Assembly (NCBI GenBank): GCA_025266875.1
Contig: JALLLT010000026.1
Location: forward strand, 248,001-312,000
Source of the DNA: Fennellomyces sp. T-0311
Taxonomy: Eukaryota; Mucoromycota; Mucoromycetes; Mucorales; Lichtheimiaceae
Reading direction: 5' to 3'
DNA length: 64,000 bases
Made by a program: the position numbers and the translations under genes. A model generated the notes under the pieces. That model was not told where the DNA came from. It was given only the letters and a program-made list of their open reading frames with translations, and searched no databases. Positions 1 to 37,511 of the stretch are shown piece by piece (the stretch's first letter is position 1; each line of letters opens with the position of its first letter).

Positions 1-3000
1 AATCCATGACGTCCAGTCGAGAGAGAAACAGGGTGTCATTGTGGAGCGAGCCTCGCAGCATCTCCTTGGAATGGGAGCGCAGAAACAAGGGCGATTGGAA
101 CATGACTAGTATAGATCGTTTGGTTACTGTTAGGCCCAACGATGACGCTGAGAAGATACCTACGTTCAACCATGTTTTCATCCAAAAGCACCTCGTTTTC
201 ACGTCCCGTGGCCTGAACATGACGATTTCTCATCGATCCTTTCAGATCAAAGATCTTTTTGACGCAGCGTTCGTAAAACAGATTCTCCATCACAAGGATA
301 TCCATGCGCATCGACTTTCCAGTGGTCGAGTTTTTGAACCCGATTCGGTACAATCCAAAGATCTTGCTCAGTACCGTGGGCAACTAGCATCCAAAGTGCG
401 TTAATCCGTGCTTTTCTTTTTATCCGCAAGCGAGTTCTGGCTTACCTCGTGGAAAAAGGCCTCGGACATGTACTGGAAATAGGAAGGTGCAAAGCGTAAG
501 AATGCATCCATCTCGTATCGAGATATTTGTTTGATCAACAGACGATCATCTAAACACAATAAGTCTTTTTTTTTCTCAATTCCAATAGAACCCAACCTTT
601 TGTTTTCAAGAATGTTGATCCTGATTTTCCACCAGAAGAGTCCCACTTGCAGCAACTTGCCAGAGATGCAATGTAACTATCTTCGCAGCCGCAGTTGCGT
701 CTTAACGCATCAAACTGCTCGACAAAGAATATCTTGCAAAAGAACTTTGTCGTTCCATCCGCAAAATCTGATTCGACGCATTTGAACCAATGTTCAATAC
801 CTTTTTCCGTGTCATATCAACGCAGACTTACAGTATCGCATGTGAATACCCGACTTGCTTCGCAATGTACGCTCGATAAACATGCCTGTCGCAGGTTCTG
901 GAGCTGGTGTTTCTTTTTCACTGCACTGGTCGCCTAGGACACTCTGTTCCTCGGAAACTACCGGAATATCACCATGACCGCCTTTGCGAATCTCTTTCAA
1001 CATGTTGAGATAATCATCACAGTTGAGGGTATATGCAACAATGGTACTCGGCTCATCCTCGCCAACAATAATCAGTGATCCAGGGAATAAGTGCTCTAAT
1101 GGGGATCTAATACACAGCTTTCCGTTAATAAACGTTGATCTTGCCAATGGTGCCACTTACAAAGGATATTCCAAGGGCAACAAATTACCGAGACCTTTCT
1201 CAGCAAGCATGTTTGTAATTGTCTTTAAGAACGAGTTTCGCTCTGAACCACTCGTTGAGAGTTCCAATGTGGACGGTTCTATGCGATCTCCACTAAGAGT
1301 CGATCCAATTATTTAGAAAAAAGAACGTACCAAGGTTACTCATGCTGGCGTTTTGTTTTGTAGGTATAGGTTGACCATGAGCTTGATCTATGGCTCTAAA
1401 GTCGGATATCGTGTGATGATGAACTCTATCATTCGTCTTGTCATCTTCATCAAAAGAAAGATGGGGAACCGTATCCACGGGAGAATCATGTAAGATGGGT
1501 TGTCCTAGCTGAGGAATGATTTCGCGTCCCCAAGATTCATCGTATTCGTCCGTATGCGTCAATGAAAACGTCAAATTTTTGCGACTTGGAGAAGTCTTGG
1601 GTTCATCCTCGCTGCTATCACTATCATCCGTATCGCTCGCTTGGAACTCATCATCCGATTCTTCGCGCACAAGTTCTCGAATCGTCGTGTACACTTCCAT
1701 GGATGATTTACTCGGCAATCGTTGTCGAACACTGCGCGTACGTCCATGGCGATTGTTGGACGGCGTACCGAATTTGACATTGGTTGGCAGTTTCGATGGC
1801 TTGGGTTCAGCCAGGGAACTCGTTGATGAACCTGGCGATTCGCGACTACGTGGGTAATAACGCAATGGATGCAAACGATGTGTTGTTGCCGAACTACCAC
1901 GTTCAGCGGATCCTTTGTAACCATAACGGTATCCGCTCAATGCCAATTCACGCTTTTCACTTGATCCTTCGTTATCCGACATGCGCTCGCGAACTTGTGC
2001 TGGTGCTGCTCGACGATGATCTCCTTTTCGTTTGGTCTTGGATGTGATGGGTGGACTACTTCGCGATGTTGCAATTTCCGAGTCTTGTGGCAAAATATCG
2101 ACGAATCGCTTGTACGCCGTTGTCGAGAGCAAAGGTAGCATGGCAGCATGGCTTGTCAAGCCGGATGGAAAGGATGTTCGCTTCTGTTCGTTGGCTCGAC
2201 GCTTTTGTGCTCGAATTTCAGGTTCTTCCAAAGATCTTTTTTGAGACTCGTGATGCTTGCTGCTTCGTTTCCGTTGATGATGATGATAGTGATGCTCCTT
2301 TTCATCGCTCCAGCTAGATAACGGTTTTGGCGTATCCTTCATCAACTCGAGTGACAATCGTCTCGCAACACTGGGATCTATTCCGTCCACAGTGGATATA
2401 TCCTCGGACTGGGTATCACTGGATGGCGCGGTGGAAGAATGCGCTGTTTCCCTCGATTGTTTCCTTGACAGTTTTTCCTTCATCATTTCCTCTAGCAAAC
2501 TATCCAACCTTGCCTCTTCTTCCAACCAAGGAGATGCCGAAGTAGGTGATTCACCCAGCATGGGTTGACATTTGATCGAAGTATCGATATCGTTCAGAGC
2601 TACAGTCAATGCATTGAAATCCCCTGGACCATCCAAACCAACATCCAAAATTGGCAAATCAGGTGCTTCGGCCGTGCGTTTGGTCCTCACATCCAAATTA
2701 GTTACCGTGCTGCTGGAAACGCTTTCCACCGGAAACATTTTCTTGAAATGGCGTCGCAATTCGCGCTCTGGACGAATGTAATGACGTACAAAATCGGCGT
2801 ATTCGATATCCCACTGCATGACCTTCATCTGCAATTTGATGCGGACTGCGTTCAATGACAATGCATCGGTCGGTGGCGTCGTGGCATAAACAGACTGCAA
2901 CGATTGCAGCATATGCTTCTTTTCACCCGTGGCACGTCGCGACATCTCTTGCAGTTTTTCCTTGCAATCGTCCACATCCTCAGGCTGAATCATGTCCAAT

Positions 3001-6000
3001 GGGAAATTCTTGTCTCGTTCAATCACGCTTTCGTAGAATCGAGTGATTTTCGATCGCGTCGATTCAAGTGCGGCGTCCTTGAGCACGATTTGTGTCTTGG
3101 GATTGATGTAGAGGTGCATAGGTGGTACGTGGACTTCCAATGGTTCGATGGTTTCATGTTGAAAACGAACAGCAATACCTTTGATACAGAAACAATGGAC
3201 ATGATCACGGAACATGGTATGTGGGCACCAGGCTTCTTCTTGGCCACACATGCCTTGCGACGATTGATGGAAGAGGAGCTCGAGGAATTTGGCGAACGAG
3301 TATTTCCAACTGCTTTCGGACATGGGCATCAATAGACTGTCAGCGTCGCAATGTTTGCAGTAACTCCACATGAGAATGTTGTTGGTGGTCATGATGGGCG
3401 CAGGGCCTTGGATGCGTTCAATGTCGACGTTCACTTTGGCATTGCCGTGAGCATACGATCGATAGTGCTCGAGCATGGTACGATCGCACATGTTGGAAAC
3501 ACATGGTGTGGTTGCGTCGGCAGCAATGTCTTCGATGTATTGACCAAGAGTCAAATCGGATTCCGGTCGATAGTATTCGAACAGTCGCATTTCTGGACCT
3601 TGACATGGCACTGCAGTAATAGAACAAACAGACATGTATAATACTACAAGTTGTTGGTGGTACGATGGCGAGAGCGTATCTGCATTATCGCCAATGTACG
3701 CTTCAAGGGCGCGCCAGCGATGATGATGTTCTTCCAACAATCGATCGTAATCGGCGTCACCCATCATGTACTGATCAAAACTTCTAAAAAACACGATCAT
3801 GTTAGCCAGCCGTTCGGGAGGCGGACTGTTCTTTAGTGCTTCAGGTGCTCTTGCTCCAATCAATGCAATCATCTTTTTCTGCGTGTCTCTCAGTCTTATG
3901 AGCAAATGTGGCACCGGCAATCCCACCATAGGGGAAGCGGATAGCGTAACGCTTTGATATCGATGGATGGCAGTTTGTATGGCTTGCAAACATTCCTCTT
4001 GATCAACCGCACCCTTGGAAGTTTCCTCGACAATCACCGTTGAATCGCTGCTCTTGTCCGATGTAACCGATTGTGCCGCAATGGTAGTTTCCTCGGTGGC
4101 AGTGGCGACGGGAGCATGGATAGCGTTTCTTGCTTTGGCAAGATCCTTGATCAAAAACGATTCGAGTCGCAAGTTGTGGACAACAAACACCATAAAGTCC
4201 ATAATCTGTTTGATCACACTCAACTCTTCCACCTTTCCTCCACGCAAAATGATGGTTGCGCCCAATTCGGGAGGGCATTGATCGAAAATCAAAAAGGTCT
4301 TGCGTCGATGAGGGATCCAGTCATGAACAAGCGTCTTGGTCTCGAATATTCCGCAGTGGCCCAACGTCAAGCCATCGGTCATGAGCTGCAAGAACGAATT
4401 GATGATACTTGCCCCGGTGCATCGAGCAACAGCATCCAATATGCTTAATTTAACATTGTACGCAACGACAATATCGGCCTTGACGAGATAATCGAGGGCA
4501 ATGCGCGAGACATTGGAGCTTACGAGGACAACGGAAGGCTTGAGAGCGACGATACGATTGACCAACTTTTCCAAAAAGTCTTTTTCTTGCGCCAGCACGC
4601 GATCAATGGATTGCAGTTGACAATCGCCCCAGAAATCGCGTGACCATTCGAGTGGAAAGAACAAGATGAGGATTTGAGGATTTTTGATCGTCTTGACCAT
4701 ACGCTTATGCGCAACATTCTTGGAACATACCACACCATTGACATAGTAACTGTCTTCTGGTGAGCCACCGGCAATCTTTTTTATCTTTACGTAGTGACGA
4801 ACATCGATCTCATCGCCACCACGAATATCTGGATGGACATTTTCTGACACCTTTAGCAAGAGATTCATCAAAACGCCTTCCCAATCATGGTTGCTGTCGA
4901 TGACTGTTTCGTTTTCATGCAACAAATGACGAAGGATTTTCCTCATGTGTTCCATGGATGCCATACTAAGCTCGATATTGACGGGATCAGAGTTGGATCC
5001 GCAATGATCAATGGAAGGATGTTCTTCGATGGGCAATGGTTCGGTCTCATCAACATTGGGAGTCGGAGGGCCGTTGCCATCATCTGGCATATCTGATAAC
5101 GGCGTCATTGTGGTGATGGGTGTGTTGCGCATGAGACTGTGCGTGCGTTGACGAAACGAACGTGATGGGGTAATGGTGAGACTTCGTCGTCGACGCATGC
5201 TATTGGATCTATCTCTTGTCAGTCGATCCTGCCGTCGTCTCAGCTTGGTAGATGATTCTTGAGTGACAATGATATCATCATCCGTCACGGTCGGTGACAT
5301 GGGAGCTCCATTATCGTCCAAACGATCGGATCCACCTAGAAAATTGAGCAAGTTCTGAGGACTCTTGTCCCATTTGCGTGAATCTTCGTCCTCGCTATCG
5401 AATTCGCTGGAGGGTAACACTGTTCCTCCACCTCCATCGACCACGAATCCATTCATTTGCGCATTGAGTGAGTTTCGTCGGAACGGAATCGGCGATCCAC
5501 CTCTGGCCGCATCAATGTTTGCCAAAGCAGTTTCCATGGAAGCAGAATTCATGGTGTTGGTACGTGATCGAGGACGGAACGGGGCGAAAAAGATCCCTTT
5601 GAGGCTCATACCAGGTTCATTTTCGGCCGATGGCTGTTGAGGTGGTTGACTATTTGCTGCTGTCGAGTTTGCGAGTGCATACGGCAATAAACCTTCGGTA
5701 GGAATTTCCAAGGCAAACGTAGTAGAATTCTGACCGCCATATTCTCCTTGATGTTTCAATGTCGTGGTTGGGATTTGGATTTTCGGTGCAGAAAGCGGTT
5801 TTTGCCCCGGAAGGACGGGCGACAGGCCGACAATGGAATCGGGGTCAATGCTGGCAAGACCCTTTTGCATTGGGGCAATGGCTACGTGTTCTTCTTGTTG
5901 TTCTTGCGCTTGCAATTTGGAATAACAGAATTTGCATACGCGGACTTGGCCATTCTGACCAATACGTTCGCCTTGGATGATATCTGATGCACATTTGCCA

Positions 6001-6708
6001 CAAAAGATTTGGCCTGCAAAGAGAAGAATGTGTTAGCAAAGAGGAGTGGATTGGCCATGCCAGTTGCAACTCGCCACAAACACGGCAATGATGTTTTCGT
6101 CGGTAGAACTTGAAGCGGGCATTGCAGTCGAAACATTCTTTGCATTGTGCATCAGGCATCCAGTATTCCGTGTTATCCACATTGGCCTTGATGTTTTCGC
6201 CTCGCAATTGAGCAATCACCCGGTTGAGTGAATGATAGTTGGATACCGAAAAGTTGGTCATGACGGACTGGTTGTCGCTGTCATTCGACGATGTTTTTGT
6301 CAATGCACCACCGTCTTCCAAATCATCCATTGATCCGCGTGCCGATATGGATTCTCTTGTCTCATCAAAGCTGACCGTATTCCGCGGAAGGGCTTGCGCC
6401 GTTGTTTTTGTCGAACTGCTACTTTCTTCCACCATAATCGAACTCTATACACTGCTTTAGTTCTCTGTTACCTATACGCAAGTAAAACACTCATTTACTC
6501 TGGGTGAATTGAGCGATGTTGCGGAATTACTGCTTGTGCTTGCCATGGGCGCTGGGTATGACACGGCCGTACGAACTTTGAAAAGAAGTTTTGACAGGAC
6601 ACCCTCTTGATCAGTCTCATCTGCATTGGCATCGTAAAGGTTGAACGACGTCAACTGAGACATGTCGTCTTCCAAAAGTCGAGACATTGATTTAGGTCCG
6701 GGCGGCAT
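1..6708 (-). CDS. FAB1: 1-phosphatidylinositol-3-phosphate 5-kinase, 3'-truncated by window edge
   Basis: Phosphorylates PI3P to PI(3,5)P2 on endosome and vacuole membranes. Nine exons in this window (6708-6499, 6444-6075, 6013-1331, 1278-1161, 1106-832, 767-597, 549-446, 383-164, 105-1) join in one frame to about 2085 codons. A FYVE zinc finger lies near residues 165-230 ([10 protein letters not shown], then QIFCGKCAS). A TCP-1/GroEL-like domain follows around 590-850, a Cys-rich domain ([11 protein letters not shown]) near 1075, and a C-terminal PIP kinase domain (DFNALTVA excluded; REDEPS-like [47 protein letters not shown]). The gene leaves the window at the VMD of the conserved NVMDYSLL motif. 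The start is the first ATG giving an open exon. The FYVE intron (6014-6074) appears to use a GC donor. Low-complexity Ser/His-rich linkers occur before the kinase domain. Identity is certain; exact exon ends are inferred. Confidence 0.95.
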
Positions 6709-8719
6709 TCATTCCAAAAGGTGTACAAGCTGTGGAAGGATACACAAGGGGTTCGATTTCAACTGCTTCCCGAATTAGAATGATGCCCGCTACAAACCAC
6801 TGCAGCACTCCATTCGGCCTCTTTCAGGGCGGCCCTTATCACCTGCTCTGAACAAACAGTAAACAAATGACCAGTATCTGTTCGTTTGTTGATGCAATGC
6901 TTATTTCTAGTGTAATAAAGCTGCTTGCTCGAGCCCACGAATCGTTATGGCAAGCTGGTTTCGACTCGGTTCCATCCAACAAATTTGTCTATATCTAGTT
7001 CATTTGTCATCATAGCCCATAATCATCTGCCAATATGTACGAATTCGTCCTTTCGATTTTAAAGTCACTATGACGACCAATTATTTTGTTGATTAATCTC
7101 CATAGTAACAATCATGCCAGATCGGGGCGGGGTTAAAGCTCCTGGGGTAGAGACCCAGCCAATGATATAAAAAGTTAAGCAACTGTGCCTCGGTATCCAT
7201 AGTGTGAGAACTCCTCGCATCTAGCCAATGGGATTAAAAGTTAATCACGGCTCTCTGGTGCATAGTGTATTATAGTTTGAAACATGTAATACTGTAAATA
7301 AGACGGGGATGTTTCGCGTTCTGGCACCTTGTGTTGCCCTTTAGTAGCGTGTGTGAGGGTAAAGTGATTGGCAAAGTGGCTGTTGCCTTCGAAGATATCT
7401 TTTTGTATTTTTCCACTCTTACCTATCTCCTCTATATTCCACTAATTACGTAATAAGTCATTCCAACCAGTCACTGAAAGGTACATAATTATGACTGGGG
7501 AAGCACGAATAAGAAGAAGCGAGTCATAATTATTTCCTACTGGTCCTCGGTTAATAATCATGACATTTATACGTACACCTTACTTTTGCGCACCGAACCT
7601 ACCTCAGACAACACAAAAGGTACAGATACTGGCACTACATCATTTAAATAGCTTAAGTCACCTCCAAGGTGATGCTTCTTCTCAGGTTTCACGTATGCGT
7701 ACAGAGAGAGTTGATATCCATATATAGCTGTAGAGTATTACCTCAGACATACAGCTTTTTTTTCATTTTAAAAGTACATCGTACGTACGTAAAACATAAT
7801 ACGTAGGTACCAAATACGTCAACAAATCTATCTAGGTACGTAAACTACAATCCAATGTATTTCAGGATTCAGTTAGCTAAAGCATGATATCGTTCGTCCG
7901 TAATACATAGAAGCACTTAAGGTAAGTAGCTCATAACTATAATACCTCTTAGAGGCACACACGGTAGCCTGGGAACGCATATCTTAAATACGTTGTAACG
8001 AAATTCTTCGCTGCTCTTTTCGGTTGATACTACCGTTCATGTCCCCTTTTCCGCATATACATGACCTTTATACCTGTTATCTATTCTATTATATATGGTG
8101 CATCTGTACCACCGTTATCTTCTTCCGCACTCGGATCTTTTACGAGTTGCACTTCCAAACTTTTATGATATTGTGCTTCTGGCACAATCAGTTTTATCCA
8201 TAGTCAGATTACCCGAAGCTTTATCACAGAAACATATAAATACCACAAGGGTATCGAATGAAATAAAACAGTTAACTTGACCTCAATAATCTTGACCATA
8301 CCTCGTCAACCTCAAGCTAGGAGCATATATCTCCTTTGGTTAACTCACCCTTTCTATTTCTCTTATTTCAACTTGTATCGTGAACCCTGATCCACACAAG
8401 TCTCTTATATCACAAACAATTTCCTATTTCAACAACCTACTGTAATGTAGTACTTCCATTTATCTTAGGAATACTTGGCTTAGTGTTATAATATGCTTTC
8501 ATATGACTCTTGTATTTTGCTTCAACATATTATCGTATGTATCGATTGCATATCTTTGGGAACCGTTTGTTTGCTACATAAGTGTAATCGTACAATTCAA
8601 AAGTAAAAAGTTGCGTGTCCGTAGCAGTACTGATAATTGTATGGGCATGACTGCCTGACTTTCGCTAAATAGTTTCATAATCGGCCTGGAAGAAGAGTAG
8701 CAAAGTAGCTATAGAATAG
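6709..8719. other. AT-rich intergenic region, no supported gene
   Basis: About 2 kb with only very short open frames. The one structure seen is a perfect 12-bp inverted repeat, ATAATTATGACT at 7485-7496 and its complement at 7522-7533, separated by 25 nt. The part next to 6708 must hold the FAB1 promoter. Confidence 0.6.
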
Positions 8720-9153
8720 CTAATGCACTACTGGTGTAGAAGATAATGATGGTCCCAATCTTAATGAAGCATCAGCTGTTATGATGATTTCAATGGGATA
8801 AGGTAGGGGTGACGACACATTACGTAGCCAATTGGTTGCATCTCGCTCGATAATTCGGAAATCCACACAAACTTGTTTATTAGGAGTTCTTTTATCAAGG
8901 TTCTCGATGATAAACGGGTCGAGTACGTATAGCTCTGGTACTTGTTTTCTGTCAAAAGGTATTGCTGGCACCGTAAAATAAGGTGTGAAAATCCCTTTCT
9001 TATATACCCAAAGCTTTACCGCTAGTAAAGACCTAGTTTAGAGCAAGATTAAGCTTTATTATCTGCTGCAATGATGATTATATAATTCTCTGTGTACGTA
9101 CCGTCAAGATGCTTTGATTTCACGGGTATATGACAGCCGAGGGAATTCTCCAT
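8720..9153 (-). CDS. small hypothetical protein, two exons (uncertain)
   Basis: Exon 1 (9153-9102) begins ATG GAG AAT and ends at a GTACGTA donor. Exon 2 (8964-8720) follows a CAG acceptor and stays open to TAG. The joined frame encodes 98 residues. The sequence has normal-looking composition (for example PFDRKQVPELYVLDP) but I recognise no family. The intron would be about 137 bp, longer than most here. It lies head-to-head with the Fanzor gene, about 320 bp apart, so it could be a gene fragment carried or disrupted by that element. Alternatively it is a chance open frame. Confidence 0.25.
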
Positions 9154-9469
9154 CCGCGTAATCTTGTGGGTTCCAATTAATGGTCACCGGAGGTATATAT
9201 CGTATTGACGACAATTTGTACGATCAGTGTAAAGTCATAGGCATTGTCAGTATTCACTTACAGAAACAGAGTATGGCGTTTTTATCACAGACAGCTTTGA
9301 AAAAAACAAAATATTTCAAGGACATTGATGCTGTGATGCATGATCCGACTGACAACGTATCGCTGTCCATCGGATTCCGAAAACATAAGTCAACAAAAAT
9401 AAATACGTAGCTCATTCTTTTTTTTTCTCCCAGCTCTTCCCATCATTTCACTGATAGCTTTTTCCCAAA

Positions 9470-12400
9470 ATGAACATACAAGAGCCCGCTGAAAACGTCG
9501 ATGCTTTTATTGGCTTAGCTTTCCCGGGAAGGCATCACAGAGTGTGTAGTCGAGTAGCAGCACTCCATCCTTCACTAAACGAGGATTATCGATATCTGGA
9601 AGTATGTGTATTTACGAAGCTTTTTACATCATGTGCTCTTGGACTCAAAAAGCCGTAATAAACAGGACATTTTGAAGCAAATTGCCAAAATCCACACAAC
9701 GTTGAAGCGTGATGCATTCAATATTTTAAACTTGCATTTACGCAGGTTTTTGGAAAATGAGGAGGCCTTCGCAGCCGCACCAGATTTTACAAACCAAACA
9801 CTATACGCCAAAGCGTATAGACTTGCTTCAGTCATGCCGTTTCATGATGTTCCAAGAGGCGGGGTAAATAGCACATGTGGTGTATGTCCCCTGCTATTAG
9901 CTAATACATGATATTGCGAATAAGGCCGATGATCCTTGGGTAGAAGACTTGAGAGATACTTTTGCTACTTTTCAGGACTGCAGGAGAGGTCCACAGCGTC
10001 AAGGTATATATCACTTGCTTTGTGGGGCTTCCTTTGTTTGACTTGTGCTAAACTTACTTTTAATTATTAGCCTTATACGTGATACCTGAAATGAACACAT
10101 CACTTCTAGGCATTATGTCTGTACGATTTGCAAATCAGGCCATGACAAGTACGTGGGACACTTTCAAGTTATTTGAAACTATAATTAATTCGGCAAACTT
10201 GTTTCGTAGACGTCAAGGAGCACATGACGCGAAACTTGCCGAAGTACCTAAAAAATGTGTGTACCAAGTACGCCGATATGCTCCGTCAAGCGAACAACAA
10301 TGAAAACCTTGCACAAGGTTTGACAAGCGGAAAAATAGGTATGCACAGTTACACACCATTCACTGGTACGCTAAAGTCGATACTCCCGGTAGCGTCGTTG
10401 ATCTCCACAAGTCTCTTTCGACATGATGCACAACCACCAGCAGAATTTGCGAATATAGTTGATTTGCAGGACACCTATATGTAAGCATAAGGCTACACGG
10501 TAATTATTTCTAGAAGTCAATGAGCTAAAATCAGATTAGGGGACTCCACGGGCACTATGAAGAGTTTTTGGCCGGTGTTGACTTCGAAGCCATTGCATCA
10601 GGACGTTCCCGAACAATATCGAACGAGTTCATTATAAACGTTGCGCGTTTCAATCGATATCTTCTGAATGTTGCCCATAGTATCGGCGCAAAAACATTTT
10701 CGTTGCTTCCACTCGGTAAACACCAGATCGGATTCTATAGCATCGACGGCCGGTGCATGTGGAGCATCTTACGAACCGTTCATCTTGCAAGACCCGGAGT
10801 GCACCAAATGCCGGATGATTTCATTCAGCCAGTAGGCTTTATGCTACATTTATCTAAACCACTGCTAACACATTAGTTTATTAGAACGGACGGTTCATAT
10901 CGCAACAGCGCTTTGATATTCTTATGCGCAACCCGTTTCTACAACAGACGTTTTGGGAGACATTATATCGTATTGACCATGTCCAGCGACGAAGGTGGCG
11001 ATACGGGAGCCAACGTACGCAATTCTGCCGCATAGTATTCCATTTAATATTTATAGCCTTCTTTTACTTAGATCTCCCTGGTCGGCCTATACGTTTTTCT
11101 GGATCCATCGAGACAGATGGCGAATCTATACAATTCCGTTTCGAACGCCCACGCGGTGGTGCAAACGCGGGTAAGCCAAAATCGATGATCCGGAATTTAT
11201 CTTGTTAATGTATATCGTTTATCAGAGCGTTTCCCGGAAACAAGAAACGATTTACAAAAGTTTCCACGGAATCTGAACCTCACTGGATGGCGACACGGGC
11301 TCTATACCTTGAAAAAAGAGCCAATGGGCCTCATAGCACAGAGGCTTGTGCAATCAAGACTTGTCGGCATTGACCCAGGTATGGATCCGAGCGCAATATA
11401 TATACGGGTTATTAAGGGTATTTTTCCAGGCAAGCGGTCATTCATAACTGCAAGTCCACACGAAGAGCCATTTAACATGAATCCTGAGCTCCGAAGAGAT
11501 ACCATTGTTGAAGTACCCTCCAGGCATTATCAGTAAGTATTGACTGAGAACAAGTGATCATGTACTCATCACACGACAGACATCAAGTGATGCAAAATTG
11601 GTTTAACGACAAGGAAAACCGAAATCGCCAGAAAGCCAATATGCAAGTAATTTATGACATGATTGCACCAAACACTCCAAACACTCCATCATTTCTGGAG
11701 TTTACTGCATACGTGGTAACCACCAGTCTAGTTCACGAGTCGTAAGCACGGTGCATTTGTATGGTGTCTTCAGTTACTAAAATGCTTCCTTAAAGATTGC
11801 TTGAATTTAATAGCCACTTCCATCATACGAAGCATCGTCAGATGCTGCACTCTGCGAGGGACTCGTTTCAGACGCAACTCATCAATGAAATATGTGGTGT
11901 GACACCACCCACAACTTCAGTAAGTTCTGCTCAACGCTCACTTTGACAATATTGACTCTTTATTTCAATAGAGGGATAAACCGTTGTATATTCACAACAC
12001 TACAAAACGCCAACGAAGACGACACCGCCAACGCGCTCGCAGATTTGCTGAAGAGGAGTTTGGATGGCAAAGAGACCATCGCCCGACAATCGTTGCATAT
12101 GGAGACGCTGTCTTGTCGCATATGAGTGGCTTCGCATCACTTCCGCATTGGGTAACGTATATAGCTGCACCACGCACTACCTTAAAACATCTTCTTTCAA
12201 CTAATTACCACCTATCACTTAGGGCTTTTCGAAAAAGCTAGCTAGATACGCGCTTCTTATTTTCATTGACGAGTTTCACTCCAGCTCACATTGCTCCCAA
12301 GGAGGCGAGGAGCTTCAAGAATTACACGTCGAACGCTTCGTGTGTGATCATAAGTGAGTATATTTGCATCCTATGTATATCGCATCATCTAATATACGAT

Positions 12401-12833
12401 TCCATGGTGACGTATCTCTCCAGAAAAGCAAGGTATCGCATGCACAGGAATGACGGTTCAAGATCAAAGAAGAAGATGACATGTAAAGACGATGACGGAG
12501 AGCTGCAGCACCCCTCTCATCAGTGCCCTGAGGCTCGTCTTGCCCGTAAGTTTCAAAAGAAGGCAGTATAGTAACGTATGGTAGCTAATACATATGCAAC
12601 TATAGCTATGGATTCGCACAAATCGAATGTATATGGATTAAAGCTCTGTACTAACCATGGGGTATGATTGAACAAAGTGAAAAACTTGAAATGCAACCAA
12701 ACTTACAGATGCAACACAGGTATTGAATCGTGATACAAACGCATCTATGAACATAAGAAGCGTGCTTCGGACATACATGGAAACTAATGGAGACATTCAT
12801 TCACGACCTGAACATCTCAGGAGAGGACCGTAA
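9470..12833 (+). CDS. Fanzor: eukaryotic TnpB-like RNA-guided nuclease, 18 exons
   Basis: Eighteen exons join in a single frame of 805 codons: 9470-9543, 9584-9863, 9901-10003, 10071-10148, 10210-10338, 10393-10480, 10540-10831, 10885-11014, 11072-11170, 11226-11378, 11430-11532, 11580-11741, 11796-11919, 11972-12151, 12223-12353, 12424-12545, 12606-12661, 12720-12833. All introns are GT-AG and 36-70 bp or slightly longer, and every phase matches. RuvC-I reads LVGIDPGKRSFITAS (Asp about 474), with the motif assembled across an intron. RuvC-II reads LLIFIDEFHSSSHCS (Glu about 682). RuvC-III reads VLNRDTNASMNIRSVL (Asp about 773). A conserved pre-RuvC block is SGSIETDGESIQFRF, and the C-terminus ends RPEHLRR. 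Known Fanzors are RNA-guided DNA nucleases carried by transposons. The first intron (40 bp) and the start codon are the least certain parts. The Cys pattern between RuvC-II and RuvC-III is atypical (see findings). Activity is inferred from motifs only. Confidence 0.9.
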
Positions 12834-13190
12834 CGAACAGGTCCACAGCATATTGTTCTGGGCGGTAAGTGTTTTCGTTTTTTCCGTATTAATTTTTTTT
12901 CTGATTTATTACCTCTCCCCAGCCATTGAACCGGTGCCCAGGTCGGCATTGAATTCATATCCGTACGCTGACAAATTCACACTCAAAGAAACTCACAGCT
13001 TCCCTTGCATTGTCATGGTTAGTCGTTATGTGCTCACATAATATCTATCGGATAAACCCTAATGAAATATTAGGCCTTGACAACCTGCAAGTTTATAGCT
13101 GTGTGGATTACTACTTGTTGAACCAAAAAACACAGCTATAAACACACACACGCTCTCCAAGACATCGCTAGGAAACCCTAGCTTTTCAAG
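12834..13190 (+). ncRNA. candidate Fanzor guide RNA (omega-like) region
   Basis: Immediately 3' of the Fanzor stop codon there is no gene but there are two strong hairpins. The first is a perfect 14-bp stem: GTTTATAGCTGTGT at 13091-13104 pairs with 13130-13143 around a 25-nt loop. The second is GCTAGG at 13167-13172 pairing with CCTAGC at 13177-13182 around AAAC. Guide RNAs of TnpB and Fanzor elements are usually encoded at the 3' end of the nuclease gene and its downstream flank, so position and structure fit. A canonical-looking GTAAGT...CCCCAG intron (12865-12922) lies between the stop and the hairpins. No transcript boundary or element end is visible, so this is a hypothesis. Confidence 0.35.
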
Positions 13191-14640
13191 GAAAACAAAG
13201 CACTTCTTGGTAGACGTGGCAGATAAATGAAACTGAAAGATTCAACTGGTGCCGTGCGTATATATGTATTAATATAACTGACTTTTTGAGCAACAAAGTA
13301 TCCGGTCATCCCTCTTGGATTTTACATGTAAAATGTTATCTATATAATTTGCATTGATCTACTCGCTGGTGGCGGCAATAACCATTGTAACGGTAAAATT
13401 TTCACTAACGCCAGATTAGAGAGTGGAGTGCTTATAAAAGCATCTTGCTTTCGTGTTCTGTACTTTTATAACTCTTGCCCATCATCTCGTCTCCTACGTA
13501 ATCACTTGGGCAGATATAGCTTTGCTCCATGTGTACCTGAGAACCTAGTAACGCGGACAATGTCATTGAGCAAAGGACATTTTTTCTACTAATAACACTT
13601 ACCTCACATTGCACAGGAAGCGATTCTGGTCACTTGAGGAAATGTAATTGATAGCCACGTTTTCCTGCTCTACACTTTCGTATGACAATGCAGGCTTTAT
13701 TTGCTAAAAAAAAATACATTCTAGCCAGAAAAAGTGCAGTAGATACTGACACCACGATGGTTTTAATGATCATATAATCTTATTTACATACTCAGGAACG
13801 AAAACTCACGCATATATATTTAATAATGAACGCCATAGTCGATTCAGTGCCCATTAGGAGTGATATCTATTCCTACCTTGGCTATTCCCGCGAAGTTGGA
13901 AGCGACGGATTAACCCAATAACTGACAGTATTAGCAATTTGAGCGCTTTCCTGGGCTGCATACGTCGGTATTATATCCTTGACATACCATAGGATCTTAC
14001 GATGCTGTATGCTGCATTGGAGCTACAGTAGCTACGGCCGAAGCAAGTAGTAGGACTGTAAGAATACGTACGAGCAGTTACTGAAGCTTGCATTGTCGTC
14101 AATCGAGAACGGTAACTTTTCCCGAATCCCTTTATATACCGACTTTAGATTAACATTGGCCGGATACGCCACAGCTCCTAGTTTCTGTAAACTCTTCTTC
14201 TTGAAACCTCACGCGCTATGTGCTGCTATGTACACGTCTTTCAAGAAAGTGGTTATGGTTCATTTTCTTTTAAAGTGTCGCGATGTTTGGGCCTGAAAAC
14301 AGAGCGGGACTACACAGTTCCGGTTAATGGATGCAATGCTTTTATTTGAAACGACTTTGCATCGATATATGTGGTAGAAGATCGACATGCTTCCATGTAC
14401 TTTTCTTTTAAAATGTACGAATGTCCCGAATTTTCCAATGTTTCCTCGGTAAAGATGGTAAAAATAGAAGAGCTGGGTATGGCTGATATTAGTATGTATA
14501 CGGTTTTACCTACTATGTGCCTGAGGTCTGTAGTCCCCATACCTTCCCTCGGGTACTAAGCTTCACCGACGCATCACCTAAAGAATCGTGAATTTCGGGG
14601 CGAACTTCCGCTTGAACTCTCTTTTTTTAACGCAGCTGAC
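13191..14640. other. intergenic region between Fanzor and the NARG2-like gene
   Basis: About 1.45 kb of AT-rich sequence with only short, unsupported open frames on both strands. No family resemblance, tRNA or rRNA is visible. If the Fanzor belongs to a transposon, its right end should lie here, but I found no terminal repeat that pairs with the left flank. Confidence 0.55.
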
Positions 14641-26872: not shown

Positions 26873-26970
26873 TGTAAAAGTATGGTGTAACAACTGACTT
26901 TTATTCGATGGGGGGATAGCGGTATAAATGCTAATACTAAATAGGGGTGTGTGTGACTCTGACTATTACA
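26873..26970 (-). repeat. 3' LTR of element A
   Basis: 98 bp, identical base for base to 31925-32022. The pol stop codon falls within its first bases. Confidence 0.95.
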
Positions 26971-29863
26971 TTGCTCCCTCTCCAAATAGTTTGATGTTAT
27001 CACGATACTTGTATAACTGCGTATGGTTTGCGGTTGTTAATTTTGCCTTCTTGTTGACTTCATGCTTGAGTGTGAAGCTTGTTCCTTCGAGGTTGTTGGT
27101 CTTGATAATTCTCCACGGTCCAGTGAACTTCGGCTGAGGAAATTTCCATAAGTCTTTTGGCTTAAGGCGCATGACCAGATCGTTCACTTGGTATTTAGGC
27201 CTGTCTTCTCTTCCTCGGTCATAATACTTCTTTTGTCGACTTTGTGCTTTTTGGATGTTGGCTTTTACGTCGCTTTGGAGTATAGGGAGATAATGATCAA
27301 GATATGCTAACCATGTTTTGGTATTATGAGTCTTAATTGGTGGCAACTGGATTTCGGCAGTACTCGGTAAAATTGGCTTTCTTCCAAACATGATTTCGAA
27401 CGGTGATCTTCCTGTTGACGCTTGCTTGCTTGTATTGATCGCGAAGGTTACAAATGGTAAATATGCATCCCAATTTGCTGGATCCTTTTCTGCATAGATT
27501 GCAAGTGCCCCCTTGATACTCCTGTTTGCTCTTTCCACGAATCCATCTCCTTGCGGATGTTCCACACTTGTTTTTGTTCTTGCTATTCCAAGCCTTGCAC
27601 ATACAGTATCCATTGCCTCCGAAATAAAATTTGATCCATTATCTGTGAGCCATCGTTTCGGTAGACCATACTTCAAAACAATCTCATACAAAAGTATGTT
27701 TGCAATGACATTTGAATCAAAACTTGGAACCGCTGCCGTTACCATCCATTTGGTGAGATACTCGCCAAAAACGACCAGATAACGGTTGCCTTGATTGCTG
27801 AGTGGGAGTACTGCTACATCTGCTGCCCAAAGTTCTCCTGGCTGGCTGACCTCGATGCTTGTCATTTTCCCGAATTTTCTTGTAGGAGTTTTGTGCCGTT
27901 GACATTCTGGACAGCCTTTGATATAATTGCTGACATCCATCTTCATTTTTGGCCACCAAGCAAGTTGATATGCTTTATCTAGAGTCTTGTCACGCCCCAA
28001 ATGCCCAGCTGTGATGTGACGATGTATTGCCGACATGAATTCTTGTCGTAACGATCTTGGCATGACAACTCTTGGTGGGTTTCCTTCGATGCAAAAAAGT
28101 CCATGATGCCATACAAATCGTTTGTCGTTTTCCTTGATGAAGTTGTGAATGTCGTCGTCATTCCGTTGGTGCCGGTGAAGTTCTTCGTACTGAATTGTTG
28201 CTGACAATTTTTTCTGTTCCTCTTGTAATAGCTGATCATTGCAGATACGGCTGAGAGCGTCGGCATCCACGTTTTCCACGCCTTTCCGGTGAACAATTGT
28301 GAAGGTATAGTTTTGAGCTGTCAATACCCATCTTGCAATTCGTCCCCGAGGGATATTGGTCCCTAAGATTGCTTTCACCGCCTTGTGATCGCAATATATA
28401 GTCAACGATGCACCATGGACGTAGCAATGAAAATAGACGAGCGCCCAGACCACACAAAGACATTCTTTTTCAGTGACTGAATAGTTTATCTCTGCTGGTG
28501 ATAGTGTTTTGCTTGCATAGGCGACAGGTCGGTATTGTTGACAGAGAACGGCACCCATTGAATAGCTGCTGCTATCCACATGGAGATCATACGGCATATT
28601 CGGGTCAGGAAATGCCAAAGTCGGCAATTCCATCAGTCGTTGCTTGAGTTTGTTGAATGCTGCCTGACTCATATCGTCCCAGTTCCAGTCCGTATCCTTG
28701 CGCAATAGTTGATACAAAGGCTTTGCAAGTTTTGCCATGTTGTCGAAAAATCGATGGTAAAAATTGCAAAATCCCAGAAACCTTTGTAATTCCTTGGGGT
28801 TTTTTGGTGTGTTCCAGTTCTTGATGACCGCCACTTTTTCCTCGTCAGCCTCGATTCCATCGGCAGAGATGTAGTAGCCCAGATACTTGATCCGTCGTTG
28901 ATTAAACTTGCACTTTTTGAGGTTGATTTTTAATGATGCCTTGGCTAAAATGTCGAGGAGGATTCCTAGGTGGACCCAGTGAGTTTTCTCATCTGGTGAG
29001 TGAACGCACAGATCATCAATGTAAATGGTGACGAATGGAAGATGACCCGCCAGATTGGTCATAAACGATTGGTACGTTGACGGACCATTGGTTACCCCGT
29101 ATGGCATAACCAGGAATCGCCAAAGAGATGTCCCGTCAGAAAAGCATGTTTTGTAGGAATCCTTGCTATCCATAGGGATTTGCCAGTATCCAGCCTTCAT
29201 ATCAATGAGTGACAAACAGGTGGAGCCCCGTAAACGGTCCAGGAGATCGTGAACCAGTGGCAAGGGCGTCTTGTCCTTGACCGTTAAGGCGTTGACACGT
29301 TTGTATGAGACGCAAAAACGCATGGTTCCATCAGGTTTTGGTACCAGCACTGGGGGTGAACACCATGGGCTTTGGCATTTTACAATCACGCCCCGCTCCT
29401 TCATTTTTAGGACCTCCTTATCTAGGGCTCTTTGTTCCGCCGGTGATCTCCTTGGACTAGGAGTGAATACAGGCTTGGCGTCACCGGTATCGATCTTATG
29501 CACAATAGGAACACTGGTGATAGTTTGATATGGCGTATCACTTATGAGTTGTGGATGTTCTTGAAGCTTTGCTTTGACTGGTGCCGGTAGATCATCCCAA
29601 ACGGTTTCCATGGCATTGGACTTTACTTGTCTCTTGGGAATGATGGTACAGTTGTCAGGGTCGAGATAGATACCTAGCCCCTTTAACCAGTCCATACCAA
29701 GGATCACCTTCGTGTTTTGCTTTGGTACAATATGGATACAGACTGCGTAATCTTGATCGTGCATGGTGAGTGTGGTGTTGACCTCTGATTCCGATAACGC
29801 TCTTGACTTATTGCCATATTGTATGTAAATAGGTTCTCGGGCATGTGAAATCAGACCCGCTTC
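26966..29863 (-). CDS. pol polyprotein of element A: protease remainder, RT, RNase H, integrase
   Basis: Open from the codon after the TAA at 29864-29866 to the TAA at 26966; the first ATG is at 29764. It starts with the C-terminal part of the protease (VILGMDWLKGLGI). RT carries LSLIDMKAGYWQIPM and the catalytic VTIYIDDLCVH. RNase H carries YDLHVDSSSYSMGAVL and TIYCDHKAVKAIL. Integrase has the HHCC finger (HITAGHLGRDK ... CPECQRHK), the Asp-Asp-Glu core (WAADVAVLP, WLTDNGSNF, GFVERANRS) and a GPW (GPY/F-type) module. No chromodomain follows. All RT and integrase catalytic residues are present and the frame is intact. Confidence 0.95.
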   Translation of the reverse strand, partial: EAGLISHAREPIYIQYGNKSRALSESEVNTTLTMHDQDYAVCIHIVPKQNTKVILGMDWLKGLGIYLDPDNCTIIPKRQVKSNAMETVWDDLPAPVKAKLQEHPQLISDTPYQTITSVPIVHKIDTGDAKPVFTPSPRRSPAEQRALDKEVLKMKERGVIVKCQSPWCSPPVLVPKPDGTMRFCVSYKRVNALTVKDKTPLPLVHDLLDRLRGSTCLSLIDMKAGYWQIPMDSKDSYKTCFSDGTSLWRFLVMPYGVTNGPSTYQSFMTNLAGHLPFVTIYIDDLCVHSPDEKTHWVHLGILLDILAKASLKINLKKCKFNQRRIKYLGYYISADGIEADEEKVAVIKNWNTPKNPKELQRFLGFCNFYHRFFDNMAKLAKPLYQLLRKDTDWNWDDMSQAAFNKLKQRLMELPTLAFPDPNMPYDLHVDSSSYSMGAVLCQQYRPVAYASKTLSPAEINYSVTEKECLCVVWALVYFHCYVHGASLTIYCDHKAVKAILGTNIPRGRIARWVLTAQNYTFTIVHRKGVENVDADALSRICNDQLLQEEQKKLSATIQYEELHRHQRNDDDIHNFIKENDKRFVWHHGLFCIEGNPPRVVMPRSLRQEFMSAIHRHITAGHLGRDKTLDKAYQLAWWPKMKMDVSNYIKGCPECQRHKTPTRKFGKMTSIEVSQPGELWAADVAVLPLSNQGNRYLVVFGEYLTKWMVTAAVPSFDSNVIANILLYEIVLKYGLPKRWLTDNGSNFISEAMDTVCARLGIARTKTSVEHPQGDGFVERANRSIKGALAIYAEKDPANWDAYLPFVTFAINTSKQASTGRSPFEIMFGRKPILPSTAEIQLPPIKTHNTKTWLAYLDHYLPILQSDVKANIQKAQSRQKKYYDRGREDRPKYQVNDLVMRLKPKDLWKFPQPKFTGPWRIIKTNNLEGTSFTLKHEVNKKAKLTTANHTQLYKYRDNIKLFGEGAM

Positions 29864-31906
29864 TTAAAGAGCTCCTTCGTCCATCGTGGTGATCTCTGAG
29901 CCAGTGTCCACTAAGGCAAGAAAGGTAGTTTCTCCAAGATGAATATCAACCATAAATCGGGTGCCTTGACGACGTTCATCCTCGATTTGGACAGATTGCT
30001 TGACTGGGATTGGTTTTGGCAAAGCAGTTTGACTGTTTTGTTCAAGGTAACTGAACAGTGGCGCTAAGAAATCGTTGTTGTTGTTGTTGTTGCTGTTGTT
30101 GCTGTTGGTTGCTGTTGTTGCCCTTGTTGCTGTGTTGCTTTTTGCTGAATGTTGTTGCTCATTTTGTTGCTTGCTGATTTGTTGAGAGTTGTTGGTGCGC
30201 GATTTTTTGTTGTGCCAACAGTCGGCAGCATAATGACCAGGCTTTTTGCAGGTGAAACATTCACCTTTTTTCTTTTTCTGCGGTTTTTTACTGTTTTTGT
30301 TGTTTGAATACTTTTTCGATCGGTTGAATTGTTGATTTTGCTGTTGTTGAGTGATGCGTTGACTATCGACTTCCATCGGTGTTGCTGTGTCGATTGCTGC
30401 TGTTGCTGATCCAGGTGCTGGCTGTTGCTGACGTGCTGCTGGTGCGTACAATGGGCTTGGTGACAAGCTTGCTGTTGGCAGGGTGATAGCTGCTGCTGCC
30501 TTGTCTTGGCGTTCTAGATGAATGGCATAGCGAATTGCCTCATCCAGATTCTTTGGCTTGTACCGAGAAACTTCCTTGGCGACGTCGGGTCTTGCATGTA
30601 CGTTGAAGAAGTATAGCTTGAGTTCTTCATTCATGTCCTTCTGCACACGCATCAACGCCAGTTTGAAACGGGCTCCGAACGTCAACATACTCTTGGTGTT
30701 TTGCTTAAGCTTTGGCAGGTCTGTCAAAGTAAGCACTGCTGCTTCGTCGCCGCCACCAAAGTACGTCGTAAATGCTGTCTTGATGCTTGCATAATCTGCT
30801 TTCTCAATGTCGCTGAGGCTGTCCCACCAGTAGACAGCTTGCCCCTGCATGCTGATCATGAACTCTTTTTTCTTGTCATCATCGCTCCACCCATAGTATT
30901 CACCCGCCTTCTCGAAGACCAGGAGCCATGCGTACAGGTCTTCGTTGGGATGACCTCGAAAAACTGGAATATCCATCCGGCGTTTATGGGTTTTCATCGT
31001 TGTATCGTTTTGCTGCACGACGCGTACTCTACGGCGTGAATTTTCTGATGAGCCATCAGATGCGCCATGATCACTGGGAGTTTCGAAGTGATCATCATAT
31101 TCATTTGACGATTCGGAATGGATGGATGACAACAAAGTTGTTTGTGCTGCTGGCCGAGTTTGAGTAACTCGAGTAGTGCGGATTGATGTTGGCAATTGAC
31201 TCTCTGTTCGTTGCTGCATTACTGCAGTGAGGTTTTGCAAAGCAGTAATAAGGGGCTCATCACGAGTAGTGAGTGTCTCCTCCATCTGGGAGACTGCAAT
31301 TTGAGTCCCTCCTGTTGCAGACGCTCTCCATTCCTCGATACGGTTCATCATCTCGCGCTGGGAGACATCACGTCGAATCTCTTGTTGTTCGAGTGTTGTA
31401 AGCAAGCTACGAATTGGCGACAACAAAGGGTGTGGTTGCTGTCCCATCGTCGGTGACGCGGTGGTGCGGAGTTCCTCATACATGTTGTGCATGTTCCTCG
31501 TTAGTTGCTGGATTTCACCCTGGTGCTGTTGCGCTTGCTCTGCAAGAGCTGCATCTCTTGCTTGCTGCCATTCTCGTTGGCGAGTCAATGCTTGTTCTTG
31601 GAGTTCAAGTAGCTGGCGTTGCATTGCTTCCATTTCTCGACGGTAGGCGAGTTCTGTTTGCATGAATTGAATTTGTTCTGTTGATAAAACATTGAGTTGT
31701 TGCGGAAGCGCCTGTTGGAACTGTTGTTCCCCGATCTGCTGTTGAAACTGTTGTTCTCCAATCGACTGTTGACTGGCTTGACTTTGTTGAAGTGGCTGTG
31801 GATATTGATATCCGGCTGGTAGCTGCTGGCTGAACGACCAAGGACTTTGTTGCTCAGAACCATCTTGGCTGCCACGTTCAAACGTTTCACGATGCTGTTG
31901 ATCCAT
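29864..31906 (-). CDS. gag-protease polyprotein of element A
   Basis: The likely start is ATG at 31906, just after the 5' LTR; the same frame opens inside the LTR at 31945. The N-terminal third is a Gln-rich coiled-coil-like region. A gag core follows (FRGHPNEDLYAWLLVFEKAG, WWDSLSDIEKADYASIKTAF), then a CCHC nucleocapsid knuckle (CFTCKKPGHYAADC) and Asn/Gln repeats. The retropepsin active site is FLALVDTGSEITTMD. It ends at TAA 29864-29866, only a few residues after the active site, and pol resumes in the same frame. The protease is therefore whole only if the stop is read through. Confidence 0.93.
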   Translation of the reverse strand: MDQQHRETFERGSQDGSEQQSPWSFSQQLPAGYQYPQPLQQSQASQQSIGEQQFQQQIGEQQFQQALPQQLNVLSTEQIQFMQTELAYRREMEAMQRQLLELQEQALTRQREWQQARDAALAEQAQQHQGEIQQLTRNMHNMYEELRTTASPTMGQQPHPLLSPIRSLLTTLEQQEIRRDVSQREMMNRIEEWRASATGGTQIAVSQMEETLTTRDEPLITALQNLTAVMQQRTESQLPTSIRTTRVTQTRPAAQTTLLSSIHSESSNEYDDHFETPSDHGASDGSSENSRRRVRVVQQNDTTMKTHKRRMDIPVFRGHPNEDLYAWLLVFEKAGEYYGWSDDDKKKEFMISMQGQAVYWWDSLSDIEKADYASIKTAFTTYFGGGDEAAVLTLTDLPKLKQNTKSMLTFGARFKLALMRVQKDMNEELKLYFFNVHARPDVAKEVSRYKPKNLDEAIRYAIHLERQDKAAAAITLPTASLSPSPLYAPAARQQQPAPGSATAAIDTATPMEVDSQRITQQQQNQQFNRSKKYSNNKNSKKPQKKKKGECFTCKKPGHYAADCWHNKKSRTNNSQQISKQQNEQQHSAKSNTATRATTATNSNNSNNNNNNDFLAPLFSYLEQNSQTALPKPIPVKQSVQIEDERRQGTRFMVDIHLGETTFLALVDTGSEITTMDEGAL

Positions 31907-31924
31907 TTTTGCTTCTCCACCAAA

Positions 31925-32022
31925 TGTAAAAGTATGGTGTAACAACTGACTTTTATTCGATGGGGGGATAGCGGTATAAATGCTAATACTAAATAGGGGT
32001 GTGTGTGACTCTGACTATTACA
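31925..32022 (-). repeat. 5' LTR of element A
   Basis: 98 bp, TG...CA ends, identical to the copy at 26873-26970, flanked on the right by target duplication GCTTT. Confidence 0.95.
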
Positions 32023-32538: not shown

Positions 32539-32570
32539 TTTTTTTTGACGAATTCTCTCACTGATTTACC

Positions 32571-37400: not shown

Positions 37401-37511
37401 ACGCTGATTGAAAAATATTGGCAACGTCGCAACCTAGATCGGCAGAATCGTAAACGAGGTGGCAAACCACTTCGTCGCTCTAATCGCACAACCAAAAGCA
37501 GACGCACTTAG
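34464..37511 (+). CDS. pol polyprotein of element B with C-terminal chromodomain
   Basis: 1015 codons from the first in-frame ATG; the true frame opens slightly upstream. The end of the protease ([14 protein letters not shown]) is followed by RT with [15 protein letters not shown] and catalytic [12 protein letters not shown]. RNase H follows ([27 protein letters not shown]). Integrase has HHCC ([11 protein letters not shown] ... CPECQMF) and a DDE core ([30 protein letters not shown]). A chromodomain near the end ([19 protein letters not shown]) would direct integration to marked chromatin. The frame is intact over the whole pol. Confidence 0.95.

Follow-up and report, generated by a model that had tools for sequence, protein, structure and literature searches.

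Does a Fanzor gene rich in introns mark a nuclease adopted by its host, or does it still belong to a mobile element? The question is raised by a locus of the mucoralean fungus Fennellomyces sp. T-0311, in a window of 64,000 nucleotides (contig JALLLT010000026.1, positions 248,001 to 312,000; coordinates below are those of the window), for which a first-pass annotation had described an intact gene for a Fanzor, a eukaryotic RNA-guided nuclease related to TnpB. In the reading preferred here, to which we assign a probability of about three in four, the segment 7126–12940 is one copy of a transposon, flanked by 6-bp target-site duplications that differ in one base, and contains an intact 17-exon Fanzor1-type gene; the product of this gene is predicted to cut DNA under the guidance of an RNA from the right end of the element, which for its mobility probably relies on a Dada-type transposase of related elements. 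Judged from its sequence, it is an intron-rich, non-autonomous, likely Dada-mobilised element of the Fanzor1 type, and its predicted guide scaffold apparently contains an intron.

The gene, its product and its copies

Reading and three-frame translation covered the region 8800–13600, and joining by hand at GT-AG borders gave a reading frame of 807 codons from 17 coding exons (9470–12833, plus strand, closed by TAA at 12831–12833). The 16 coding introns are 47–71 nt long, with GT-AG ends throughout and phases that all match. The 18 exons, 17 introns and 805 residues described before are thus revised in the coding part, although a seventeenth intron-like stretch does exist, in the 3' untranslated region (UTR) at 12865–12922. 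The single uninterrupted frame with its three RuvC motifs, GIDPGKRS (at residue 474), IDEFHSS (682) and NRDTNAS (773), was recovered in full on re-splicing. The earlier argument that such a gene is unlikely to be a chance assembly also stands, since the copy C13, in an element 94% identical, keeps 16 GT-AG introns and the frame of every exon, and since proteins of Lichtheimia hyalospora and L. ornata align almost full length (38–39% identity, 97–99% of the query covered). These two relatives were the only ones found when 5.8 billion database proteins were searched by shared short words, and profile searches and searches with the C-terminal half added no others. From them, the host would probably be a Lichtheimia-like member of the Mucorales. 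Exon 5 is partly aligned to both, about 20 residues there being missing from the relatives, and a gene model with one more intron might cut part of this exon.

The window protein has Asp-Pro-Gly at RuvC-I (Asp476), as do the relatives P0001 and P0002, and the spacing between Glu684 and Cys691, which places the glutamate six residues before the zinc motif, is the same in all three. These two features distinguish Fanzors from TnpBs (PMC10711439). Asp775 follows the second zinc knuckle, with five residues between it and His769; the knuckles read CSQG and CTNH in the window protein, CHHC and CPEH in P0001, and CRHD and CNEH in P0002. The Pfam model PF07282 (Cas12f1-like TNB) is matched with E 2.9e-5 and 24.6 bits, slightly below the curated cut-off of 26.3, and all three family members of the alignment match it at E 0.1 or better (P0001 with 26.2 bits). 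Taken with DPG and the relocated glutamate, this match upholds the Fanzor identity proposed in the first-pass annotation; the profile comparison suggested there gave this near-threshold Pfam match, and no Fanzor or TnpB model among the NCBIfam matches at E 0.1. What speaks against the assignment is that two zinc ligands deviate from CxxC/CxxC (CSQG, CTNH), that a PDB profile search up to E 10 matched no solved Fanzor, and that the AlphaFold model of the nearest relative, P0001, built with one relative, has a mean predicted local distance difference test score of 31 and is unusable. As a whole, the motifs and profile match support a Fanzor1-type nuclease, for which RNA-guided DNA cutting is predicted.

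A second multicopy Fanzor-like family is present at 17 places of the same genome (including L001–L008), with GIDPG...NEYRSSKTCPKC...NRDAAAAFNI in frames of 149–283 amino acids and PF07282 scores just above or below the cut-off. Profile comparison of the window family with this second family aligned 24 columns (E 5.9e-4, probability 29).

The gene lies within a repeated element. Protein and end searches of the genome (45.6 Mb, 182 contigs) found at least eight copies or fragments, in the window, C13, C57, C1, C94, C158, C100 and C117. Alignment to C13 and C57 extends from 7112/7114 to 12940, where it stops sharply, and its first bases are the common flank motif; C100 was aligned piecewise across 7127–12940. 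The target-site duplications of these three copies (TTTAAG in C13, AATATA in C57, TATTAC in C100) agree in 6/6 bases, so that three of four in the close family are perfect and the window has one mismatch. Four of the six left duplications of the distant subfamily were tested, L067 and L071 being left out, and three were recovered after GCCCA at 4.2–4.4 kb (C109, C114 and C172:631k, among 10, 19 and 33 genome-wide 11-mer hits); the fourth, of C57:921k, was not among the 13 hits obtained for it.

Two details of these copies may be added. Tandem left ends lie about 100 bp apart at C117:1457836 and 1457937 (L073). The eleven bases at the right end of C114 equal GCCCAAACTAG, which is also found about 1.8 kb 3' of distant-family Fanzor exons at C95:1342547 and C46:340075; its recurrence, as a recurrent target or in segmental copies, is unexplained.

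Two of the seven genes examined (window and C13) are intact, each with its 16 GT-AG introns, and five (C57, C100, C1, C94, C158) are broken by stops, shifts, losses or insertions. Exons 2 and 14 of the C100 copy (L044) are interrupted by insertions of about 105 bp and 357 bp; apart from these, its element is full-length. Between the two intact genes there are 39 synonymous and 24 nonsynonymous changes, with a ratio of nonsynonymous to synonymous rates (dN/dS) of 0.17 and a nonsynonymous shortage of p ~1e-11: they have been under purifying selection. The ratios of the window gene to the broken copies range from 0.31 to 0.59, those of C1, C94 and perhaps C158 being inflated by force-aligned truncated ends.

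Introns 1, 3 and 4 stand at the same aligned places and in the same phases in the distant subfamily, which has about 34% identity in the first 100 residues, and intron 2 has the same phase and agrees in place within a gap of a few residues (the comparison is with one copy, L063, where the fourth acceptor was not located). Since introns 1–4 are common to both subfamilies, they predate the split, and the gene has long been intron-rich, as the earlier suggestion of long residence implied. The elements most simply moved as DNA. Intron-bearing Fanzors have reportedly been noted in a survey of the group.

Such a long intron history, together with the intact frame and the dN/dS of 0.17, could suggest that the host has taken over the gene for a cellular job and that the introns and frame reflect host selection. 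However, each intact copy belongs to a full-length element that has its duplications, and the two sites are unrelated; five of the seven genes examined are broken, and selection for transposon function accounts for the value of 0.17 equally well. We consider host takeover very improbable, and the preference for host use over a transposon, expressed in the first-pass annotation, is not supported in view of a repeated element with its duplications and its damaged copies.

The shared left end, the mover and the flank motif

A transposase frame was not found in 7127–9469, where the longest stop-to-stop frame has 105 codons, so that the search of the element yielded no transposase gene. The element shares with Dada transposons its 6-bp duplications and, as judged by eye, the lack of clear terminal inverted repeats; because 7127–9469 contains no Dada frame, it could only be a non-autonomous passenger.

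Parts of its left end (the first 193 bp, mostly the first 52–118) match 31 places, the window included. Thirty of these loci were fetched and 28 typed: five belong to the close family and six to the distant one (L062, L063, L064, L066, L071 and L067), nine carry DUF6729 without a Fanzor match, and eight carry neither gene, as judged on about 1.5 kb of sequence. L067 was typed as distant-family, and not as DUF6729-only, because a Fanzor match follows 4 kb further on. The partner protein of C123 matches DUF6729 (E 3e-20) and the 3'-5' exonuclease PF01612 (E 6.9e-14), and the best solved matches of its exonuclease are those of EXD2 and WRN. Joined by hand, this protein contains a CxxxxC...CxxC finger (C124/C129, C173/C176), a pair of aspartates 70 apart (68 in Dada-U6_DR) and, after the second of them, a DEDDy exonuclease (D470, E472, D543, Y613, D617), which is followed in the next frame piece by DxxH (DIYH). 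Dada elements have no terminal inverted repeats, duplicate 6–7 bp and contain introns, and in those of Laccaria and Ectocarpus a DEDDy exonuclease separates the second D from DxxH (PMC3706591). The partner protein, with DUF6729, DDE-like spacing and a DEDDy exonuclease, fits the Dada superfamily. It counts against this placement that its third catalytic residue was not identified and may lie beyond the sequence covered, which stops short of the right ends and duplications.

As for remnants of the transposase inside the window element, only 80% similarity over the first ~125 bp and weaker DNA similarity further in were seen. Since the left end is shared and the duplications are alike in length, a Dada-type enzyme, supplied by related elements at other genomic sites, likely moves the Fanzor element. 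The literature searched, outside which many subscription papers lie, held no published link between Fanzor and Dada, and on Fanzor in Mucorales it held only PMC11423790, which concerns other matters; no paper on DUF6729 was found in it either. A tyrosine or serine recombinase could also be considered as the mover, as clear terminal inverted repeats are not seen by eye, and as the left flank resembles the right end in the manner of attL/attR, both finishing in CA. Against it stand direct repeats of 6 bp, perfect and of differing sequence, at six sites (three read directly, three found by place), and a partner protein that combines DDE-like spacing with an exonuclease and has no Pfam recombinase match. 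A recombinase is accordingly improbable, and the tyrosine-recombinase reading of the ends was mostly dropped once the 6-bp duplications of differing sequence had been found.

Near-identical subterminal repeats are located at 7154 (CCCAGCCAATGA) and 12918 (CCCAGCCATTGA), one in each end of the element. The repeat at 12918 runs across the acceptor of the UTR intron, so that transposase recognition and splicing may make use of overlapping sequence there.

The sequence directly before the duplication differs between the types of elements. TGCCA occurs in 5/5 close-family left ends and in 0/23 of the other typed ones; the five are the four full elements (C57 being read via its duplication AATATA) and L052, an internally deleted relative in which no right end and no Fanzor were found. 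The distant Fanzor elements have TCA in five of six cases, the sixth, L067, showing a one-base slip. The nine transposase-bearing left ends without Fanzor share no common target motif; two of them have CA (L061, L065), and L077 has TCA/A one base off. With L052 counted as Fanzor-type, L067 as a miss and the eight ends with neither gene left out, CA precedes the duplication in 10/11 Fanzor-type versus 2/9 transposase-only ends (Fisher p 0.005). In SpuFz1, a conserved CA before the left end belongs to the tested target-adjacent motif (TAM) CATA, and Spu elements without Fanzor retain that CA too (PMC10432273).

These data make TGCCA a likely TAM of the Fanzor nuclease, but the matter is not settled, because L065 is a real exception and because Dada targets can be one-sided. 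L065 (C160:24681) bears transposase coding sequence, has no Fanzor match and nevertheless shows TCA/A as in the distant Fanzor elements; with the near match in L077 and with CA in three of the eight ends where neither gene was detected (L060, L068, L074), it implies that the flank motif may reflect the transposase. TGCCA and TCA/A would then be target preferences and not nuclease TAMs. Such an origin would agree with Dada targets, reportedly conserved more strongly to one side of the duplication and sharing the subterminal repeat of the element (PMC3706591), and with the resemblance of TGCCA in the left flank to TGCCCA at the right end. It agrees less well with the fact that the motif changes with the Fanzor subfamily on nearly the same left ends, with the excess of CA in Fanzor-type ends, and with the role of CA in the TAM of SpuFz1. 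We regard a transposase origin of the motif as a substantial possibility, though not the more probable one.

The 3' untranslated region and the predicted guide RNA

The sequence between the stop codon and the right end consists of three pieces, which differ in their conservation. In pairwise counts among the four full copies (window, C13, C57, C100), mismatches number 0/186 in the first 31 bp, 30/294 (10.2%) in 12865–12922, the most divergent of the regions compared, and 4/108 in the last 18 bp, while the coding introns and exons of these copies have 5.7% and 4.4% (634/14517), respectively. When C1 and C94 are added, the three pieces have 10/465, 74/738 and 18/270 mismatches and the coding introns 4.7%. 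The donor of the middle piece is GTAAGT in five copies, GTAAAT in C117 and GCAAGT in C94 (GT in 6/7), CTGAT is found inside it, and the acceptor is CCCCAG in 7/7.

According to fold prediction, excision of 12865–12922 joins UGGGCG to CCAUUGAACCGGUGCCCA and produces a perfect 8-bp hairpin that extends to the last base of the element. Among six GT..AG choices tested, only this one gives the eight-bp terminal stem, whose 5' arm ends exactly at the intron donor. No uninterrupted octamer of the element pairs with its last eight bases, and hexamers pairing with the last six number 4/5,808. Over 13 stem pairs and seven copies, 96.7% of cells are paired, compared with 22–44% when the arms are slid. 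Rfam had no match at gathering scores in 7100–13100. The guide RNA of SpuFz1 lies between the stop codon and the right end and reaches 14–15 nt into the flank (PMC10432273); in known Fanzor1 guide RNAs, a single stem can separate the first stem from the guide (PMC11423790).

We can envisage the following sequence of events. Transcription would run through the right end of the element, and the guide RNA would have the 3' UTR as scaffold and the first ~15 bases of the right flank as guide. Removal of the apparent intron would join UGGGCG to CC and complete the stem UGGGCGCC/GGUGCCCA beside the guide. With TGCCA of the left flank serving as TAM, the nuclease would cut excised sites, in which the guide sequence comes after TGCCA, and the element would be regained when the break is repaired with an occupied copy as template. 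A scheme of cutting the excised site and restoring the element has been proposed for TnpB.

A spliced guide RNA is plausible on this basis. The more far-reaching proposal, that the spliceosome builds the guide RNA, the 5' arm of the stem nearest the guide being interrupted by a 58-nt intron, so that only a spliced read-through transcript would give the full scaffold and the arming of the nuclease would be tied to nuclear splicing, all inside a Dada-type transposon, is put forward tentatively, at odds clearly below even. Several points weigh against it. Both the production and the splicing of the guide RNA are predictions; across six copies, mismatches are more frequent in the last 18 bp (18/270, 6.7%) than in the coding introns (4.7%); C1 breaks two of the eight terminal-stem pairs; and the terminal bases are predicted to find partners across the intron in the unspliced RNA too. 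The seven copies show no double changes in the stems, which are therefore supported by conservation and not by covariation. The same stretch might well be an ordinary 3' UTR intron of the mRNA; the working guide RNA would then be made from another transcript or from an unspliced one, and the perfect stem at the junction would be incidental. An exon junction only 31 nt past the stop would be harmless for an mRNA, the terminal bases can pair without splicing, and the distant copy C138, whose 3' UTR contains by eye no intron-size GT-AG stretch, still has a terminal stem, a predicted long hairpin (UGGGUUUGAC/GUCGAGCCCA) with its 3' arm ending at the right end (five more copies share this boundary, and three of them have base changes in the arm). 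Against an incidental origin stand the 31 bp before the intron, which among the four full copies are more conserved than the coding exons, and the 5' arm, which stops precisely at the donor. We give such an origin a little less than an even chance.

Neighbouring features and comparison with known systems

Features of the Fanzor element and its borders (window coordinates)
Feature	Coordinates	Strand	Remarks
Flank motif ATGCCA directly before the duplication, candidate TAM	7114..7119	+	TGCCA in 5/5 close-family left ends
Left target-site duplication GATCGG	7120..7125	+	5/6 bases equal to right copy GGTCGG
Whole transposon copy	7126..12940	+	5,815 bp; start GGCGGGGTTAAAGC, end GGTGCCCA; aligned to C13, C57, C100
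Coding sequence of the Fanzor1-type gene	join(9470-9601, 9666-9863, 9925-10003, 10071-10148, 10210-10480, 10540-10831, 10885-11014, 11072-11170, 11226-11378, 11430-11532, 11580-11741, 11796-11919, 11972-12151, 12223-12353, 12424-12545, 12606-12661, 12720-12833)	+	807 aa
RuvC-I catalytic Asp476 of DPG	11372..11374	+	
Relocated RuvC-II catalytic Glu684, six residues ahead of Cys691	12271..12273	+	Signature as in PMC10711439
RuvC-III catalytic Asp775 of NRD	12732..12734	+	
Predicted 5-bp hairpin GGACC/GGTCC across the stop codon	12825..12844	+	34/35 cells paired, 7 copies
First exonic part of the 3' UTR, predicted guide-RNA scaffold	12834..12864	+	0/186 mismatches, four full copies
58-bp intron-like stretch in the predicted scaffold (GTAAGT...CTGAT...CCCCAG)	12865..12922	+	30/294 mismatches
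Last 18 bp, predicted to pair as 3' arm with 12859-12864 in the terminal hairpin of the spliced form	12923..12940	+	
Right target-site duplication GGTCGG, also predicted first guide bases	12941..12946	+	Guide position by analogy with SpuFz1 (PMC10432273)

On the minus strand, long reading frames with a FYVE-like finger occupy 1293–6444, with the Fanzor element about 0.7 kb upstream of them; we take these frames to resemble a Fab1/PIKfyve kinase. Further along the window, two divergent retrotransposons adjoin each other (26966–32014 on the minus and 32565–37511 on the plus strand), one of them with a chromodomain-like end, and from their motifs both are presumably Ty3/gypsy-like.

If the preferred reading and its spliced scaffold are correct, guide RNAs of eukaryotic RNA-guided nucleases can be products of splicing, and genome surveys that expect conservation at the right end to form a single unbroken block would overlook them. 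One more transposon superfamily would join the carriers of Fanzors, and several sites would provide natural combinations of a motif in the flank with a guide at the right end, usable for direct TAM tests.

Among known systems, SpuFz1/Spu-1 of Spizellomyces punctatus, a Fanzor1, resembles the window element in its RuvC D-E-D residues and its multiple copies (PMC10432273, PMC3627910), as well as in the conserved CA before the left end, there part of the TAM, and in the place of the guide RNA, here predicted, between the stop codon and the right end (PMC10432273). Spu-1 is, however, a single open reading frame of ~2.1 kb with inverted repeats of 30–33 nt and TA duplications (PMC10432273, PMC3627910), whereas the window element has 16 coding introns, 6-bp duplications, an apparent scaffold intron and no clear inverted repeats. 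PpFz1 of the mycoparasitic fungus Parasitella parasitica is likewise a Fanzor1, whose guide RNA has the first stem and one stem before the guide (PMC11423790); in contrast, the profile of the window protein matches no solved Fanzor, and the main text of that paper does not contain the word intron. MCi-5 of Mucor circinelloides comes close, being a Fanzor1 element with putative 6-bp duplications and no significant inverted repeats, but its duplication is ATTTAT and it carries a Harbinger transposase (PMC3627910), whereas the window family has varied duplications and Dada-like partners. The likeness to Dada lies in the lack of terminal inverted repeats, duplications of 6–7 bp, introns, a CCCC finger and the DEDDy exonuclease between the second D and DxxH, as in Laccaria and Ectocarpus (PMC3706591). 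Dada families are often found in small-RNA genes (PMC3706591), whereas the nine partner left ends have no target motif in common. Finally, IStrons, which unite a group I intron with an insertion sequence, resemble the window element in combining splicing and a transposon able to carry TnpB (PMC4227781). Their intron is self-splicing (PMC4227781), whereas that of the window is an apparent spliceosomal intron inside the predicted guide scaffold.

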